Origin: a virus
Virus record (IMG/VR): IMGVR_UViG_3300046692_000161
Location: 1 to 61,963 of that record
Reading direction: 5' to 3' (one strand)
DNA: 61,963 nucleotides
Positions 3,117 to 60,658 of the stretch are shown one piece after another. A model generated the notes under the pieces. It had not been told where the DNA came from, searched no databases, and saw nothing but the letters and a program-made list of their open reading frames with translations. Position 1 is the first letter of the stretch. The number at the start of each line of letters is the position of its first letter. The translations under genes and the position numbers were made by a program.

Positions 3117-4115
3117 ATGTCGACAGTAGCAACCGAAAACGCTGGCTTGACCGATGAAGAAGTGACCGCCCTGGCGGAAATGGACGCGCAGATCGCTGGC
3201 GGCAACGAGGATGACCCGGTATTCAACATCGACGAGGTGGTGCGCACCAAGCAGACCGCCGAAGACGCCGGCATGCTTGACGCCAAGGTGGTACGCGAAG
3301 AGGCCGCCAAGGCTGCAGCGCTGACCACCGAAGAAGGCGCCGCCGCCAAGGCTGCCGCTGATGCCGCCGCCGCTGCCGAGAAGGGCGCCGCCACCGAGCT
3401 GACCGCAGAAGAGAAGGCCGCCGCCGAAGCTGCCGCCGCTGCCGTCACCACTGAAGAGCAGGAGCCGGCCAAAGCCAGTCAGCCGGTCCTGGTTGCGCAA
3501 GTTCCAGAGGGCACCGTCGAGCGCCTGGCCGCCATTGGCGACGAGAAGAAGGCCATCACCGCCAAGTTTGACGACGGCGACCTGACCGCCAGCGAAATGA
3601 ACGCGGAGTTGGACGCGCTGAACCGGGAGGAACGCAAGCTGGAGCGCGTGATTGACCGTGCCGAGATTGCCACCGACCTGGAGAACCAGCGCATCACCAA
3701 CGATCGGACCAATGAAATCAACACGTTCCTCAGTGACGTGAAGATCCCCAATGATCCGAAGAACCTGCGCTTCCAGACGTTGAACCAGGCAGTGATCCAT
3801 GTGGCCAACGACCCGGCCAACGCCGAGCTGGGCGCCACCGCGATCATGAAGAAGGCCTACGACTACTGCGTGCAGGAAGGTGTGCTGCCGCCGAAGACGC
3901 TCAAGTCTGACCCGATCCCACCGAAGGCGATCGTTGTTCCGCCCAAGCCGCTGAACGCACCGCCAACGCTGGGCAACCTGCCGGCATCGGACGTGTCGAC
4001 CACCGAAGAAAACCGCTTTGCTCACCTGAATCGCATGGGCCCCGACGCCCGCGAGGCGGCATTCGCCAAGATGAGCCCGGCCGACCAAGACGCCTATCTG
4101 TCTGCAGGAGCCTAA
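3117..4115 (+). CDS. Scaffolding-like protein
   Basis: A 332-residue protein between portal and capsid, the usual place of the scaffold that templates procapsid assembly and is then expelled. The start chosen is the ATG at 3117, with GAGG seven bases upstream; an upstream in-frame GTG lies inside the hairpin and lacks a ribosome site. Residues 60-130 are a very Ala/Glu-rich low-complexity stretch, followed by a charged helical region (EERKLERVIDRAEIATDLEN) and a Pro-rich C-terminal part. This pattern fits a scaffold by position and composition; there is no specific sequence family to cite. Confidence 0.65.
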   Translation: MSTVATENAGLTDEEVTALAEMDAQIAGGNEDDPVFNIDEVVRTKQTAEDAGMLDAKVVREEAAKAAALTTEEGAAAKAAADAAAAAEKGAATELTAEEKAAAEAAAAAVTTEEQEPAKASQPVLVAQVPEGTVERLAAIGDEKKAITAKFDDGDLTASEMNAELDALNREERKLERVIDRAEIATDLENQRITNDRTNEINTFLSDVKIPNDPKNLRFQTLNQAVIHVANDPANAELGATAIMKKAYDYCVQEGVLPPKTLKSDPIPPKAIVVPPKPLNAPPTLGNLPASDVSTTEENRFAHLNRMGPDAREAAFAKMSPADQDAYLSAGA

Positions 4116-6048: not shown

Positions 6049-6762
6049 ATGAAAATCGAGTGCATCCTGCGTCGCAACCCGCCGACAACTGTAATCCTCG
6101 GCTCTCTGGCCGGTGATAAACACTACAAATTCCAGCCTGATGAACTCGGCCGCCACGTCTGCGAAGTCGAAGACGCGCAGCACATTGCCCGCCTACTGAG
6201 CATCAGCGAGGCCTATCGCCTCCCAGGTGATGAGCCTATTCCGCAAGCGCTGATCCCGGCCATCGTCGAGCACTCGCTGCCGACCGCCGCGGCTACCTTG
6301 GCCCCGATCGACGAAAGCATCATCAAGGGCAGCAACGTGCACCCGGCCACCTTCGATCTGGGCGGCACTGAGCCGGCCGCCATCGAAGACGTCGTATTCC
6401 ATGCCCTGACCCTGTCCGGCCTGACCACGCCTGAGTGGAACAGCCTGCCGGATGAAGACCGCCACAACTTCATCGACATCGCCCTGGACGACCTAGACGA
6501 GCGCGACCTGTCCGACGAAGAGGACAAGCCCGAGCCGATGGCCCATGAAGCAAAGCCGACCCCCGAGACTGCGCCCGTTTCGGCCGCTGGGAGCTCGAGC
6601 GGCGCCGTGCCGAGCAGCGACCAGGCCGCTACGGCCGCTGAACTCGAAGGCCTGCGCGCTGACTACCTGGCCAAGTTCGGTAAGAAACCGCACTACAAGG
6701 TTGGCGCCGATAAGCTGCGCACCCTGATTGCAGCAGACGCGCCGCCCGACAACGAGGAATAA
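6049..6762 (+). CDS. Virion protein with C-terminal HeH/LEM-like domain
   Basis: A 237-residue acidic protein. The N-terminal 70 residues are compact; residues 145-185 are a Pro/Ala/Ser/Glu linker; the last 40 residues (LRADYLAKFGKKPHYKVGAD) look like the small two-helix HeH/SAP-like motif found at the end of several phage head-completion or structural proteins. It lies between the capsid terminator and the first fibre gene and is probably a head-tail joining or minor structural protein. This is a modest-confidence reading. Confidence 0.6.
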   Translation: MKIECILRRNPPTTVILGSLAGDKHYKFQPDELGRHVCEVEDAQHIARLLSISEAYRLPGDEPIPQALIPAIVEHSLPTAAATLAPIDESIIKGSNVHPATFDLGGTEPAAIEDVVFHALTLSGLTTPEWNSLPDEDRHNFIDIALDDLDERDLSDEEDKPEPMAHEAKPTPETAPVSAAGSSSGAVPSSDQAATAAELEGLRADYLAKFGKKPHYKVGADKLRTLIAADAPPDNEE

Positions 6763-6768
6763 ACCGTC

Positions 6769-8505
6769 ATGCAGAAGTACGCCGATGTTGTGCTAGATCG
6801 CAAAGGGAATGTTGTTCCAGGTGCCACGGTCCTGGTCAAAACGTCAGCCGGAGCCAACGCCGATCTGTTTTCGGCCAACGGAACCGGCCCGATCAGCAAC
6901 CCCGTGACAACCGACAGCTTCGGCCGCTTCTTCTTTTATGCCGCCAATGGTCGCTACAACTTACAGGTCTACATCGGTAGCGCACTGTTCACCGCGAGCA
7001 ATGACATTCTGCTGGAAGACCCGCTGGACGCCACGCCGGAAGTGATTGATGGCGGCACCATCAGAAACAGCGCTCTTCAAAACGTCACCATCGATGGTAA
7101 GGCGCCCGCCACCAATGAAGACTTGCTAAACAAGACCGACCCCGTAAAAGGTTCGGGAGGGATTGGGTTCTCTCAGGCATTGTCATACGCGGCCGGCACA
7201 CTGGGGGCGCATTCAAAGATCATTGTCAGCGTCACAGATTATCCGTTCAATGCGGTCTCTGGCACAAATGCCACTGCGGCGTTCCAGGCTGCGTTCGATG
7301 CGGTGGTCGAGGGTGGCGTAATTACCATTCCAGGCCCTGGCCCTTACACGGTTGGCGCGATCGTTGGCACCAAGAAGGTTACTTGGGAGGCTCTGTATGA
7401 TCTGAACTCAAACATTGGCCTTCTGAATTTGCCAGGCACTGTGCAATCACGCCTTGGTTCAGCAGTCAGTATCTACCGAACCAATGCGGCCGGCACAGAC
7501 TTTGCGAGCCTGCGTTCTACGCGACTGGCCAGTTATACGGGCGGTACGGCTGGCAACGTATGCAGCAACATCTACGCAAAAACAGCGGTGTCTAACAACT
7601 TGGCCGACTCATTCGAGTGGGTTGGGCTGTTCGTTCTGGATAATGCCGGGACCGGGCAAAACTGCGCAGTCTATGGCCAGGCGAATCGCAAGGCGTTATC
7701 AGCCATCACTCGCGGCGGTACATTCGGTGGTGTTTTTGAGTCTCGCGACCTCACGCTAGAAGCCAACCCGACATCCGGCCTGATTGGTATCGAGGTCGAC
7801 ATCTTTGCCAATGGCGGAGACTCGGTTGGTCGACGTATTGGCATGGACATGGTGATTGGCAAGGGCGTGTCGGAAGGTGATCCATGCGAAGTCTACGCAG
7901 GCTTGCGCTTTGGCCCAACTAACGGCATCAGCGCCAACGCCCGGTTCCGTAACGCCATCTTGATCAACGGCGCCAAAGACTACGGCATGCAGGTGCTGGG
8001 CACGGGGGTTGAAACGTCGATCAATATTACGGCCACCGGTGGCAAGATCGGCGTGGGCGTAGGGGGAACTAACTCGGATGCGGATTATGTGTCGTCAGGA
8101 ACGTCAAATTATGGTTTGCGTTTGTCTGGTAACTACGCCAGCGGTATAGCCATTCGCGTTATCACCGGCGCTGCAATCGCCCTAGAGAGCACGGGCGCGA
8201 TCAAGATGAATTACACCCTTGGAGCCATTCAGTTCCTGAACACCACGGTCGTGAAAAATTCATTCAACACAATCACGGGCGCCATATCGATCGGCAGCAA
8301 CCAGGTTCTTGGTCCGCGTATTACCGGGTGGACGGCCGACACAGGGACATCCAAGCGCGGCAGTAGCGCGACATTTTCTCAGACAGCTCCGGCCTCATAT
8401 AGCCAGTCAAGTATGCAGGCAGTAAACGATGCCGTCGCCGCTGTAACGCAAGCGATGAAGGCATTAAAAGACGATTTAATTACCCACGGATCTATTGGTA
8501 CTTAA
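6769..8505 (+). CDS. Tail fibre/tailspike-like protein
   Basis: A 578-residue protein. The first 80 residues (KYADVVLDRKGNVVPGATV, then FGRFFFYAANGRYNLQVY) are the N-terminal module typical of podovirus spikes and fibres that attach to the tail hub. The middle (residues 130-520) is Gly/Thr/Ser-rich with repeating short beta strands, as in a right-handed beta-helix. The C-terminal 30 residues form an alpha-helical coiled coil. It probably binds or degrades surface polysaccharide; no catalytic signature can be named by eye. A/T content is somewhat higher in its middle than in its neighbours, as is common in exchanged receptor-binding genes. Confidence 0.75.
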   Translation: MQKYADVVLDRKGNVVPGATVLVKTSAGANADLFSANGTGPISNPVTTDSFGRFFFYAANGRYNLQVYIGSALFTASNDILLEDPLDATPEVIDGGTIRNSALQNVTIDGKAPATNEDLLNKTDPVKGSGGIGFSQALSYAAGTLGAHSKIIVSVTDYPFNAVSGTNATAAFQAAFDAVVEGGVITIPGPGPYTVGAIVGTKKVTWEALYDLNSNIGLLNLPGTVQSRLGSAVSIYRTNAAGTDFASLRSTRLASYTGGTAGNVCSNIYAKTAVSNNLADSFEWVGLFVLDNAGTGQNCAVYGQANRKALSAITRGGTFGGVFESRDLTLEANPTSGLIGIEVDIFANGGDSVGRRIGMDMVIGKGVSEGDPCEVYAGLRFGPTNGISANARFRNAILINGAKDYGMQVLGTGVETSINITATGGKIGVGVGGTNSDADYVSSGTSNYGLRLSGNYASGIAIRVITGAAIALESTGAIKMNYTLGAIQFLNTTVVKNSFNTITGAISIGSNQVLGPRITGWTADTGTSKRGSSATFSQTAPASYSQSSMQAVNDAVAAVTQAMKALKDDLITHGSIGT

Positions 8506-45850: not shown

Positions 45851-46629
45851 GCATGCTTTTCAACTTCCGGCCGCTAGTGGTCAATCCAGGGCTCGCGTCG
45901 TCGATCGGTTTGAACGAGGCGATCGTGCTGCAGCAAATCAAGTATTGGACGATCGAGACAGATGCGGGGGTCGAGCATAAGGGCTTGCGCTGGGTCTACA
46001 ACACGCATGAGCAGTGGGCCGAGCAGTTCCCGTTCTGGTCAGTGGATACCGTCAAGCGCACCTTGTCGTCGCTGGTCAAGCAGGGTTTGGTGTTCGTTGA
46101 AAAGCTGAACAAGGCCAAGCATGACCAGACGAATTACTACGCGATTAACCACCGCTCTAATGCCCTGATCGATCAGGGCAACTTACCCCCAATCGATGAG
46201 GGCAAAACACCCCCCATCGATCAGGGCAATTTGCCCTCATCGAGCGGGGCAAAACGCCCTGATGTTACAGAGACTACAACAGAGATTACTACAGAGACTA
46301 CACAACAAGCCTTTGGTCTATTCTGGGAATCAAGCCTGAAAAATGGCAGCAAGAAGAAGGCTCACGAACTGTTCACGAACTACTGCAAGCGGACCAAGAC
46401 CGACCCTATGGCGTTCGCCCTGGTGCTGGTCAACGACACCGCCGCTCGCAAGAAGGCCAATCAGTTCGGCTTCGACAAGCTGCATGTGACGACCTACCTG
46501 AATCAGGAGCGCTGGAACGACACCGTGCAGGCCGCCGCACCAGGTAAGCCAACGCTCAATCAAGACTTCGCCGCCAAGACCTACGAGGGCACTGCCAATG
46601 ATGACTTCGCCGATTTCCTCAAGGACTGA
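45847..46629 (+). CDS. Replication initiator, lambda O-like
   Basis: A 260-residue protein, ATGA-coupled to the HNH gene. The N-terminal 105 residues are a winged-helix DNA-binding domain (SSIGLNEAIVLQQIKYWTIE, then SVDTVKRTLSSLVKQGLVFV) as in phage replication proteins. Residues 107-138 are four eight-residue repeats (LIDQGNLP, PIDEGKTP, PIDQGNLP, SSSGAKRP) encoded by DNA iterons. A Thr/Glu linker and a C-terminal helical domain with NQFGFDKLHVTTYLNQERW follow. It is upstream of a DnaC-like loader, as lambda O is upstream of P. Confidence 0.8.
   Translation: MSMLFNFRPLVVNPGLASSIGLNEAIVLQQIKYWTIETDAGVEHKGLRWVYNTHEQWAEQFPFWSVDTVKRTLSSLVKQGLVFVEKLNKAKHDQTNYYAINHRSNALIDQGNLPPIDEGKTPPIDQGNLPSSSGAKRPDVTETTTEITTETTQQAFGLFWESSLKNGSKKKAHELFTNYCKRTKTDPMAFALVLVNDTAARKKANQFGFDKLHVTTYLNQERWNDTVQAAAPGKPTLNQDFAAKTYEGTANDDFADFLKD
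46161..46310 (+). other. Probable lytic origin inside the O-like gene
   Basis: ATCGATCAGGGCA-type repeats start at 46168, 46192, 46216 and 46239 (spacing 24, 24, 23). The first lies in a perfect 20-bp palindrome, TGCCCTGATCGATCAGGGCA (46161-46180). An A/T-richer stretch follows (46261-46320, many ACAGAGACTAC-like units). Iterons within the initiator gene followed by an A/T-rich unwinding region is the lambda ori design. Confidence 0.65.
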
Positions 46630-56505: not shown

Positions 56506-56541
56506 TTGGCGTGCCTGGAGTGGTTCGCTATACTAACCACT
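56506..56541 (+). promoter_or_regulatory. Sigma70 promoter with operator for tRNA-Asn/large RNA
   Basis: TTGGCG (56506-56511), 17 bases, TATACT (56529-56534); predicted start about 56541. AGTGGTT (56519-56525) and AACCACT (56535-56541) form a perfect 7-bp inverted repeat around the -10, an obvious operator; the left arm contains TGGTTCG. Confidence 0.75.
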
Positions 56542-56544
56542 CTT

Positions 56545-56619
56545 AGGCGTGTAGCTCAGTGGTAGAGTAGTCGGCTGTTAACCGATTGGTCGCAGGTTCG
56601 AATCCTGCCGTGCCTGCCA
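56545..56619 (+). tRNA. tRNA-Asn (anticodon GTT)
   Basis: Full cloverleaf: acceptor AGGCGTG (56545-56551) with CGTGCCT (56609-56615), D stem GCTC/GAGT, anticodon stem GTCGG/CCGAT with loop CTGTTAA (anticodon GTT at 56577-56579), T stem GCAGG/CCTGC with loop TTCGAAT, discriminator G and encoded CCA (56617-56619). Two G-U pairs in the acceptor. It is the first element of the transcript leading into the large structured RNA. Confidence 0.93.
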
Positions 56620-57332
56620 GTTCGTTCTGAAGCGCGAAAGACGCGGCTCCCCAGCTGCCAGCCCGCACATGCGGGATTCGTCTTTATCCGTGTAATGCCT
56701 TCCCGGTGGTAGAGTTGGATTCGCAGATTCTTGCTTCCGACAAGTGCAGCGATGCAGAGGCGTTACACGGATACAGATGAACGCGACCTGCTTAGGCGCT
56801 AAGTCGGAAGGAGCCTTGGTTAATCCCGTGCGGACACTGACCGAGTGCGCGATGAGAGGGTGGAGGTAAATGTCTCCTGTGAGTCCACCCTGAAGCTGGA
56901 GTTGAGCGCCAGCCATTTTGTATCCTGATTCAGTCCTGGGATGCGGTCCCGCGCGGGAGTTAGTGCCGCTGTAAGTCCAGGCTGTATCGGTAGTGTGATC
57001 GAAGGCTTCGGCGCAACGCTCCTATGTTGTGTGACGGAGCCACGGTCACACTACCGATGCAGATGAATGTGCAGGCTGATGTACGGGGAGTGGAATCAAC
57101 AGGTGGTAAGACTTCCTAGGCCGGCAAGCCCGGCTGCCATGAAAGACAGCGCCCCACCTTGTGCCGGGATCAGCACCGGCCATCTGTACCGAGCAACGCA
57201 AAACCGTATGAGCCATGGTGGAAGGCGTGGGAGGGTTAGCCCACACGACCAGAAATGACGGTGACAGTGAGCGGGATAGACCGACCGAGTGGGAAGGCCC
57301 ACAAGCCCAGCCCTCAACACGCTGGGCTTTTT
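56620..57332 (+). ncRNA. Large structured non-coding RNA downstream of tRNA-Asn
   Basis: About 710 bases with no credible gene. Helices seen: 56662-66/71-75; a 15-bp stem 56685-56699/56759-56773 capped by TGCA-GCGA-TGCA (GNRA loop, 56745-56756); CTTAG/CTAAG (about 56791); AGGGTGGA/TCCACCCT 56857-64/84-91; GCTGG/CCAGC 56895-99/909-13; nested CCTGG/CCAGG and GCGG/CCGC (56935-56981) around a 12-bp palindrome; a 15-bp stem 56984-56998/57046-57060; AGGTGG/CCACCT 57101-06/57154-59; GCCGG/CCGGC 57120-34; GTGGG/CCCAC 57227-44 and 57289-302; terminal terminator. Both 15-bp stems are followed by CAGATGAAYG. Size and tRNA linkage recall the giant phage RNAs GOLLD and ROOL; identity not verified. Confidence 0.65.
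57303..57332 (+). terminator. Intrinsic terminator of the large RNA
   Basis: AAGCCCAGC (57303-57311), nine-base loop, GCTGGGCTT (57321-57329), T-run 57328-57332. A perfect 9-bp stem; it defines the 3' end of the tRNA/ncRNA transcript. Confidence 0.88.
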
Positions 57333-57376
57333 AATGAGCATGACCTTTGCTAATCCCTAACCAGATGGAGCTGTAC

Positions 57377-57661
57377 ATGATGATCAAGCGATTCCTCACC
57401 TATGCCGCGCTGGCTATCTGCGCATGCTTCGGCCCGTCCGTGTTCGCCCTGGAGCGACCGGTAAGCTACCTGGCCGCCTCGATCGACCGAATGGCCGACC
57501 TGCACGCCACTGCCACCACCCGCCTGGAGCTGACCCTAGCCCAATGGCGAACGGGTAGCGAAGGCACCGATAAGGCTTTGAGTTCCAACCTGCGCGCATC
57601 GAGCAATCACTTTGTCATGGATACAGTCCAGCCGTTGCCAGCGGACCCCGTTCAGGTATAG
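57377..57661 (+). CDS. Small exported protein
   Basis: A 94-residue protein; ATG 57377 has GGAG six bases upstream. A clear Sec signal peptide (IKRFLTYAALAICACFGPSVFA) with probable cleavage after A-L at about residue 24, leaving about 70 residues that form one or two helices (YLAASIDRMADLHATATTRL). It stands alone between two terminators, next to the large RNA. It could be a lysogenic-conversion or envelope factor; no family recognised. Confidence 0.6.
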   Translation: MMIKRFLTYAALAICACFGPSVFALERPVSYLAASIDRMADLHATATTRLELTLAQWRTGSEGTDKALSSNLRASSNHFVMDTVQPLPADPVQV

Positions 57662-58662: not shown

Positions 58663-59078
58663 TGAACATCTACATTGATTGCGAGTTCAACGACTTCCAG
58701 GGTGCGCTGATCAGCATGGCGCTGGTGGCGCAGGACGGCCGCGAGTTCTATGGCGTGCTGCTCTGCGCCGACCCTAGCCCATGGGTTAAAGAGCATGTGA
58801 TGTCGGTCCTGGTCGAGCTGCCTATCGCCTATGAGCACTTCCAGGAAGACCTGGCCGAATACCTGGCGCAGTTCGAGCGAGTGAACATCATCGCCGACTG
58901 GCCCGAGGACATCGCCCACTTCTGCCAGGCGCTGATCACCGGCCCCGGCTACCGGATGAGCACGCCACCGCTGACCATGGAAGTGCGCCGCGACCTCGAT
59001 GCCGTGTCAAAGCTGCCGCACAACGCGCTGGAAGATGCGCGCGCCATCCGCCTGCTGGCCATCGAGAAGGGGTTGTAA
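58662..59078 (+). CDS. 3'-5' exonuclease-like (DnaQ/RNase H fold)
   Basis: A 138-residue protein; ATG 58662 with GGAG seven bases upstream. NIYIDCEFNDFQGALISMAL carries the D-x-E catalytic pair of the DEDD fold, VNIIADWPEDIAHFCQAL the middle Asp, and LPHNALEDARAIRLL the final H...D. It matches small DEDD 3'-5' exoribonucleases encoded by phages. Its place between the terminase subunits is unusual. Confidence 0.75.
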   Translation: MNIYIDCEFNDFQGALISMALVAQDGREFYGVLLCADPSPWVKEHVMSVLVELPIAYEHFQEDLAEYLAQFERVNIIADWPEDIAHFCQALITGPGYRMSTPPLTMEVRRDLDAVSKLPHNALEDARAIRLLAIEKGL

Positions 59079-60658
59079 TGGCCGCCGTCGTCGCCTACAA
59101 GCCGATCGAGGACATGACGGCCGACGAGTTCAAGGAAGCGCTCGGCGACCCGCACTGGCGCCTGTCGAACCTGTATTACATCAAGACCAAGGACGCATCG
59201 GGCAACGACGACGAGGATGAAGGCGGCGAAGGCGTGGTGGTCAAGTTCAAGCCCAACCGCGCCCAGCAGGTGCTGATGAAGCGCCTGTGGTTCCGCAACC
59301 TGATCCTCAAGGCGCGCCAGCTCGGCTTCACCACCTTCATCCAGATTTACTTTCTCGACGTCGCGCTGTTCTCGCCCAACCGCAACCTGGGCGTGATCGC
59401 CCACACCGAGGACGCGGCCAAGAAGATTTTCAAGAAGATCAAGTTTGCCTATGACCGCCTGCCGCTGGCTGTGCGCCAGGCGATGCCGCTGAAGACCTGC
59501 AACCTACTGGAAATGACCCTCGCCAACGGCTCGACCATCCAGGTGGGCACGTCGATGCGGGGCGACACCATCCACTACCTGCACGTTTCCGAGTACGGAA
59601 AGATCTGCGCGAAGACGCCCGAGAAGGCCGAAGAGGTTGTGACGGGTTCGTTCCCGGCTGTGCCTGATAGCGGGATCATCTTCATCGAGTCCACCGCTGA
59701 AGGCCGTGGCGGCGACTTCTACGACAAGTCCAACCGTGCCGAGGCCCTGCACAACGCTGGCGCCAAGCTGCGCCCCAAGCAGTTCCGCTTTCACTTCTTC
59801 CCATGGCACGACGAGGACGGCTATCAGTGCGACCCGGCCGGCGTGATCATCAGCAAGAAGGAGCACGAATACTTCGACGAGCTGGAAGGCAAGTTGAACA
59901 AGGTGCTGACCTTGCCGCAGCGCGCCTGGTGGATCACCACCCGCGACGAGCTGTTCAGCGGCCAAGACGAGCGCATGTGGCAGGAATACCCATCGACATC
60001 GAGCGAGGCGTTCCAGCAGTCCACCGAAGGCACCTACTACAAGCAGCAGTTCATTGCCGCGCGCAAACAGAAGCGCATCACCACCGTGCCCTATCACCCG
60101 GGCATTCCGGTCAACACCTTTTGGGACATCGGCCACGGCGACGGCACGGCCATCTGGCTGCACCAGCGCGTGGGCCAGCGCAACAACTTCATTGGCTTCA
60201 TTGAGAACTGGGAAGAACCCTATTCCTGGTACGTCGCCGAGATGCAGAAGACCGGCTATGTGTGGGGTACGCACTACCTACCGCACGACGGCAACCATAT
60301 CCGTCAGGGCGAGGCCGTCAATGCGTCGCCACAAACCATGCTCGAGAACCTGGGCCTGCGCCGCATTGAAATCGTCCAGCGCGTCAGTGAGTTGCAGCAC
60401 GGTATTCAGGCAACACGTAACGCTTTTAGCACCTACTGGTTCGATGAGGTAAACTGCAAGGAAGGCCTGGCACACCTCGAGTTGTACAAGAAGGCCTTCA
60501 ACACGCAGACCCAAACGTACAACGACCGCCCGTTGAAGGATGGCCACACCGAAGCCGCCGATGCCCTACGCCAACACGCGCAGGGCTTTGTTGATCAAGG
60601 CCCGCAGAAGAGCGCATCGAGCGTTCGCGGGGCTCGCAAGTCCTGGAGGACAGCATGA
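59078..60658 (+). CDS. terL: Terminase large subunit
   Basis: A 526-residue packaging ATPase-nuclease whose ATG shares a base with the preceding stop. ATPase: an atypical Walker A region LKARQLGFTTF (about 77-87), Walker B GIIFIESTAEG with catalytic Glu204, and HVSEYGK at about 169. Nuclease: FWDIGHGDGTAIWL (first Asp about 349) and a later KDGHTEAADALRQ block. Normal length. It cuts and pumps DNA into the procapsid through the portal. Confidence 0.93.
   Translation: MAAVVAYKPIEDMTADEFKEALGDPHWRLSNLYYIKTKDASGNDDEDEGGEGVVVKFKPNRAQQVLMKRLWFRNLILKARQLGFTTFIQIYFLDVALFSPNRNLGVIAHTEDAAKKIFKKIKFAYDRLPLAVRQAMPLKTCNLLEMTLANGSTIQVGTSMRGDTIHYLHVSEYGKICAKTPEKAEEVVTGSFPAVPDSGIIFIESTAEGRGGDFYDKSNRAEALHNAGAKLRPKQFRFHFFPWHDEDGYQCDPAGVIISKKEHEYFDELEGKLNKVLTLPQRAWWITTRDELFSGQDERMWQEYPSTSSEAFQQSTEGTYYKQQFIAARKQKRITTVPYHPGIPVNTFWDIGHGDGTAIWLHQRVGQRNNFIGFIENWEEPYSWYVAEMQKTGYVWGTHYLPHDGNHIRQGEAVNASPQTMLENLGLRRIEIVQRVSELQHGIQATRNAFSTYWFDEVNCKEGLAHLELYKKAFNTQTQTYNDRPLKDGHTEAADALRQHAQGFVDQGPQKSASSVRGARKSWRTA

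Follow-up and report, generated by a model that had tools for sequence, protein, structure and literature searches.

Several kinds of phage-borne RNA form the background to the locus described here. GOLLD (RF02032) is a large RNA of phages and prophages that often lies beside transfer RNA (tRNA) genes and whose variable region may itself hold tRNAs (PMC12286853). ROOL (RF03087) is a large, ornate phage RNA found near tRNA islands. STnc100 and its relative PasD have been treated as prophage small RNAs (sRNAs; PMC13192938), and the tRNAs that phages carry let them escape tRNA-targeting defences (PMC10264068, PMC11555353). We analysed a stretch of viral DNA of 61,963 nucleotides (nt), positions 1-61,963 of IMGVR_UViG_3300046692_000161, which we call the window and whose numbering is used for the locus. 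It belongs to a Bcep22-like podophage, with the terminase large subunit at 59078-60658. The RNA encoded directly after its tRNA-Asn gene, at 56620-57332, almost certainly belongs to a class of structured, modular phage RNA that is widespread and had not been listed before.

Across the 163 modules that we read, the order of parts is strand A, a cargo hairpin, strand B, UGAAY, hairpin K1, a variable stretch V, hairpin K2 and strand A'. Strand B ends in UG, followed by AAY and then K1. K1 reads GCGC-AGGCUGAU-GCGC, with variants, and K2 reads GCCGG-AGAUCAGCA-CCGGC, while V ranges from 6 to ~200 nt. The first-pass annotation of this DNA had proposed looking for covariation across homologues, and the helix formed by B and A' covaries strongly. 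One set of 48 modules was collected with a search pattern in which the terminal TG was the sole constraint on B and A' was left free. In it, 94% of the cells in the eight B:A' pairs were paired, and both partners had changed in six of the eight pairs, which showed as many as four Watson-Crick types. The whole-structure covariation score for this set was 0.27, compared to 0.07 when shuffled and at most 0.10 when slid. B and A' formed 8.3 of 10 pairs, compared to 5.8 with shuffled partners, and a second alignment of 58 sequences confirmed the B:A' covariation. The K1 and K2 stems varied little in these pattern-selected sets, and matches to covariance model R1, in which no loop is fixed, include K1 stems such as GCUA/UAGC. 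Complementarity between the K1 and K2 loops (GCUGAU:AUCAGC) is almost invariant; variants retain CUGA:UCAG, and none is clearly compensatory. The two loops may pair once B:A' has formed. In relatives lacking K1, the K2 loop also lacks AUCAGC (module 1 of L002), a joint loss that fits a loop-loop contact.

The window holds one diverged and one canonical module, arranged as follows.

56506-56534, plus strand: promoter-like site TTGGCG-17-TATACT (9/12 consensus matches; ~0.5 such sites per stretch expected by chance)
56545-56619, plus strand: tRNA-Asn (GTT), Rfam 70 bits
56643-56675, plus strand: two hairpins of the 5' leader, GCGGCTCCCCAGCTGC and CCCGCACATGCGGG; in relative L010 the latter is a plain terminator with T7
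56679-56688, plus strand: strand A of module 1 (CGTCTTTATC)
56688-56771, plus strand: cargo hairpin 1, with a stem of ~14 base pairs (bp) and a tRNA D-arm-like GGTGGTAGAG in its loop at 56705-56714
56768-56925, plus strand: module 1, diverged (model R1 21.1 bits, E 6e-4), with no canonical K1
56770-56779, plus strand: strand B of module 1 (GATACAGATG)
56895-56913, plus strand: K2-like hairpin of module 1, GCTGGAGTTGAGCGCCAGC
56914-56924, plus strand: strand A' of module 1, CATTTTGTATC
56931-56981, plus strand: linking hairpin domain CAGTCCTGGGATGCGGTCCCGCGCGGGAG...TCCAGG, kept in relatives
56982-56988, plus strand: strand A of module 2 (CTGTATC)
56982-57062, plus strand: cargo hairpin 2, with a 17-bp stem (56982-56998 with 57046-57062) and a 47-nt loop
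57054-57191, plus strand: module 2, canonical (model R1 70.4 bits, E 2e-17)
57056-57065, plus strand: strand B of module 2 (GATGCAGATG), complementary to both A and A'
57069-57084, plus strand: hairpin K1 of module 2, GTGC-AGGCTGAT-GTAC
57085-57162, plus strand: variable domain V of module 2, 78 nt
57163-57180, plus strand: hairpin K2 of module 2, GCCGG-GATCAGCA-CCGGC, its loop complementary to the K1 loop
57181-57190, plus strand: strand A' of module 2 (CATCTGTACC), whose helix with B covaries across homologues
57191-57302, plus strand: 3' domain, with hairpins GTGGGAGGGTTAGCCCAC (57227-57244) and GTGGGAAGGCCCAC (57289-57302)
57303-57332, plus strand: intrinsic terminator, by reading of the sequence (9-bp stem, 9-base loop, T5)

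The tRNA-Asn gene, the ~710 gene-free bases and the terminator lie where the first-pass annotation had placed them, and its promoter is present but weak when taken alone. It had also described two 15-bp stems; both are real, with lengths of 14 bp (ATCCGTGTAATGCC/GGCGTTACACGGAT) and 17 bp (CTGTATCGGTAGTGTGA/TCACACTACCGATGCAG), each including one G-U pair. The longer is one of only three perfect inverted repeats of at least 12 bp with loops of up to 110 bases in the whole window. No convincing open reading frame (ORF) lies between the tRNA and the terminator, and a protein-coding reading was rejected, as the ORFs there are overlapping chance ones. A small exported-looking protein (MIKRFLTYAALAICACFGPSVFA...) is encoded at 57347-57661 and on the reverse strand of L022 (~3190-3490), and it adjoins modules in several phages.

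The 716 nt after tRNA-Asn fold to -312.6 kcal/mol, compared to -265 for shuffles (z = -5.7). When the region is cut into 240-nt tiles, a single tile is conspicuous (56881-57120, z -5.1), and its score is equalled or exceeded by a few tiles in other parts of the window. Because the locus is not unique in this respect, tiled folding energy does not discriminate and was rejected as proof of a structured RNA; evidence was therefore sought in homologues. Local folding in the window is strongest at 46161-46243 (z -7.0 for the minus strand), where inverted repeats of 13 and 14 bp occur.

Protein-based retrieval yielded close relatives only, and a first DNA pattern built on the 5' leader gave no matches. 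Relatives fetched via the terminase carry the RNA in mosaic form. At L010 1162-1250 there is neither module nor tRNA, and the leader alone ends in a terminator hairpin with T7, as if this were an empty site. A later pattern derived from module 2 matched 53 stretches in unrelated phages, 199 phage records and 321 plasmid records (Rhizobium and Mesorhizobium plasmids among them), as well as >100 genome stretches and >100 more viral stretches. Hosts of the module-bearing phages include Pseudomonas, Klebsiella, Salmonella, Aeromonas, Burkholderiales and others. Named carriers include P1, mEp460, the Klebsiella phages KP591P1, Magnus and UPM 2146 (the last two Taipeiviruses), Salmonella STGO-35-1, Aeromonas ST4 and Pseudomonas PS-1, AH02, Shamal, PAE2 and Aurca01. 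Model R1, which leaves the loops free, detected modules in 13 of the 149 species genomes searched from Enterobacteriaceae and in 10 of the 399 from Pseudomonadota. A 140-nt core from P1 matched 842 of 5,426 complete E. coli genomes, and no annotated feature lies under these matches among those listed.

In P1, ~930 nt of module RNA lie between tRNA-Thr and tciA, within the tRNA operon (L075 2414-3340, equal to OP279344 ~65552-66480; z -8.1). The array gives model matches of 92, 65 and 25 bits, and its last module, by reading, has the layout of STnc100, with K2 CCGGGAGGAACCCGG. Small ORFs are annotated over the array (a hypothetical protein; Plp in RCS47), and these may be spurious. Further recurring elements (GGTAGCCGGAATGTGCAAG; GCCGGAAAGACGGC) stand upstream of modules at L212 ~6450-6900 and at other enteric loci, which means that the RNA often extends beyond a single module. 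In Klebsiella phage UPM 2146 (L356 1890-5220), ~3.3 kilobases (kb) without a credible gene contain numerous long-range stems and a single canonical module, along with an STnc100-like module recognized by reading, directly before tRNA-Met/Arg; this region is possibly a multi-kb RNA.

When the cargo hairpin is present upstream, strand A is usually a copy of A' and a competitor for B. Because A and A' both complement B, the A:B and B:A' helices are mutually exclusive and together constitute a built-in switch. Of 145 modules, 61 have a strong A:B stem closing the cargo; 41 of the 61 have an A strand that takes at least four of the eight B bases while B:A' also pairs at six of eight or more. The P1 strands are one example (A, CACAAC; B, GUUGUGAUG; A', CAUCACAAC). 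Two-state energies of six modules, with the loop-loop contact left out, differed by 2-7 kcal/mol in either direction.

The cargo evolves quickly. Between close relatives of the window, cargo stems have unrelated sequence while pairing is retained, as with the stem of cargo hairpin 1 in L002, L003, L007, L008, L011 and L017. In L011 the cargo is an almost complete tRNA-Ile, and in L003 it is a tRNA that, despite an insertion, still matches the tRNA model. With annotated tRNA genes masked, 15-mers drawn from phage and host tRNAs matched exactly at 24 positions on the sense strand vs. 0 antisense, and at 96 vs. 22 when one mismatch was allowed. Many of the sense matches are T-arms ~40-45 nt upstream of K1, the position at which stacking of a T-arm on an acceptor stem would be expected. 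Hairpins resembling an initiator anticodon (GGG-NNCAUAN-CCC) numbered nine on the sense strand and one antisense. Of the nine, at least one is inside a real tRNA, and six come from P1 (which has two), mEp460 and three enteric loci. Under a strict definition, T-arm hairpins numbered three in cargo and one in V (~0.02-0.03 in shuffles); because these matches are few, we claim tRNA likeness for a minority of modules only. A tRNA lies within 1.5 kb of just 26 of 152 modules, and tRNA linkage was therefore rejected as a defining feature. The tRNAs that do lie this close are on the same strand in 35 cases and on the opposite strand in three.

From these sequence comparisons, we tentatively favour a switchable modular scaffold that displays tRNA-like decoys as the overall explanation. 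The decoy mechanism itself, in which the RNA would serve as a scaffold produced together with the phage tRNAs or in the same manner, is a possibility we hold with less assurance; it draws on presumed co-transcription with tRNAs, rapid cargo turnover, the tRNA pieces on the sense strand and the published role of phage tRNAs in defence escape. During transcription, A:B would form first, holding the cargo hairpin as an extended acceptor-like stem, and A' would then displace A and close the K1-K2 domain. The scaffold would present the fast-evolving cargo to host factors that act on tRNA, as a decoy or sponge, with anticodon nucleases, other tRNA-directed defences and tRNA-processing enzymes as candidate targets. 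The tRNA-like cargo of the minority of modules comprises T-arms, D-arms, the initiator-type CAU anticodon hairpin and near-complete tRNAs.

Several observations weigh against this explanation. Most cargo loops are not recognizably tRNA-like, many modules are far from tRNAs, and stand-alone modules have no strand competition. Moreover, K1:K2 loop pairing is suggested rather than proven, because near-invariant loops give no covariation support. Alternatively, K1 and K2 could be so extremely conserved because they mark a protein site. The broadest form of the proposal is possible rather than probable. It holds that P1 and many other phages carry a new class of switchable RNA scaffold that may present fast-evolving tRNA-mimic decoys against tRNA-targeting immunity, with STnc100 as one surviving single-module form and the ~3.3-kb gene-poor, module-bearing Taipeivirus region among the largest phage RNAs.

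The best-surviving rival, though we consider it unlikely, is an RNA-only assembly scaffold resembling GOLLD and ROOL, in which loops and swapped strands would build a multimer or cage with the cargo enclosed or displayed. This would suit a large, phage-borne RNA often near tRNAs that occurs in multi-module arrays, whose variable regions sometimes contain tRNAs, as in the GOLLD linker (PMC12286853), and whose invariant complementary K1/K2 loops could pair between molecules. Still, the GOLLD and ROOL models have no match here, and module number and order vary widely, a poor fit to a fixed symmetric cage.

Rather unlikely, too, is a role in cis, in which the RNA would regulate the tRNA operon or the genes after it, with the terminator-like hairpins and the A/B/A' switch setting read-through and processing. 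Downstream genes vary among phages, many modules have their own terminator or none of this context, and cargo turnover and tRNA pieces would be left unexplained. What speaks for such a regulator is the position of strand A directly after a terminator-like hairpin (a complete terminator in L010), the mutual exclusion of A:B and B:A', and the phage Shamal module, which sits between antiterminator Q and the lysis genes.

A third rival treats the modules as sRNAs that regulate by base pairing, the proposal made for STnc100 and PasD; V or the cargo would be the seed. STnc100 shares a GGUGAAU-hairpin-V-hairpin-CACC arrangement with a closing helix, an STnc100-like module occurs in the same P1 array, and both described RNAs are treated as prophage sRNAs (PMC13192938). 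However, V and cargo are wholly different between close relatives, and the RNAs are long and strongly folded, which makes this reading improbable. An element acting purely as DNA (a mobile repeat, or recombination sites folded from single strands, with no functional RNA) would match the mosaic stem exchange, the A and A' repeats, the sporadic presence and the module loss in L010, but it is very improbable given the co-directional tRNA bias (35 vs. 3), the sense-strand tRNA pieces and the lack of any noticed recombinase partner.

Whatever its function, this is a conserved, covarying RNA in P1 and in about one-sixth of complete E. coli genomes that is absent from Rfam and unannotated among the matches listed. 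It connects the large ornate phage RNAs, the orphan sRNA STnc100 and the question of phage tRNAs, and its presence in P1 makes an overlooked RNA class testable in a standard laboratory phage. A literature search for the core sequences, with preprints and most subscription papers beyond reach, returned a single match, an unrelated insect paper.

Among described systems, GOLLD and ROOL were the families named by the first-pass annotation, which offered membership, distant relationship or a new class. The large, structured, tRNA-linked phage RNA it pictured is there, and the last option prevailed. Neither model matched at E≤10 (GOLLD, by its conserved 3' domain, in the record; the ROOL control genomes were also silent), and an Rfam 15 scan of the full window found only the tRNA. 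A permissive scan of the locus added just two chance matches, and scans of 20 and 15 homologous loci gave only tRNA, one abiF RNA and one STnc100. Membership in either family was thus rejected. The abiF RNA (47 bits) is at L074 9877-9913, adjoining a module. The module RNA does share with GOLLD its carriage by phages, its proximity to tRNA and a variable region with tRNAs. By contrast, its unit is a repeatable ~130-nt junction with strand competition; ROOL likewise differs in anatomy. Formation of a 14-mer cage is a further hallmark of GOLLD. The modules would be part of the same transcripts as defence-evading phage tRNAs and have cargo with tRNA-like pieces, yet most cargo consists of fragments locked in a hairpin rather than functional tRNAs. 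Identity with the Pas sRNAs was rejected, as PMC13192938 covers STnc100 and PasD and not the module RNA.

The closest resemblance is to STnc100 (RF02076), which shares a closing helix of ~6-9 bp with ...GGUG/CACC... strands, the UGAAU linker, a hairpin right after the linker, a variable stretch and a hairpin right before the 3' CACC strand. Like the modules, it is found in prophages and often in tandem (in several genomes), and in Klebsiella phage Magnus it shares an RNA region with a new module ~1.3 kb away. Its K1 and K2 sequences differ, however, and its K2 loop is AGGCA, with no 6-bp loop complementarity. Since its loops vary and have only two or three complementary bases, the idea of compensatory kissing loops via STnc100 was rejected. 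Model R1 gave one match at E≤1 among STnc100 loci, outside the STnc100 core, and Rfam at E≤0.1 never called the new modules STnc100. Because neither model detects the other's loci, we regard STnc100 as the nearest known relative of the module RNA in layout, and not as the same family.
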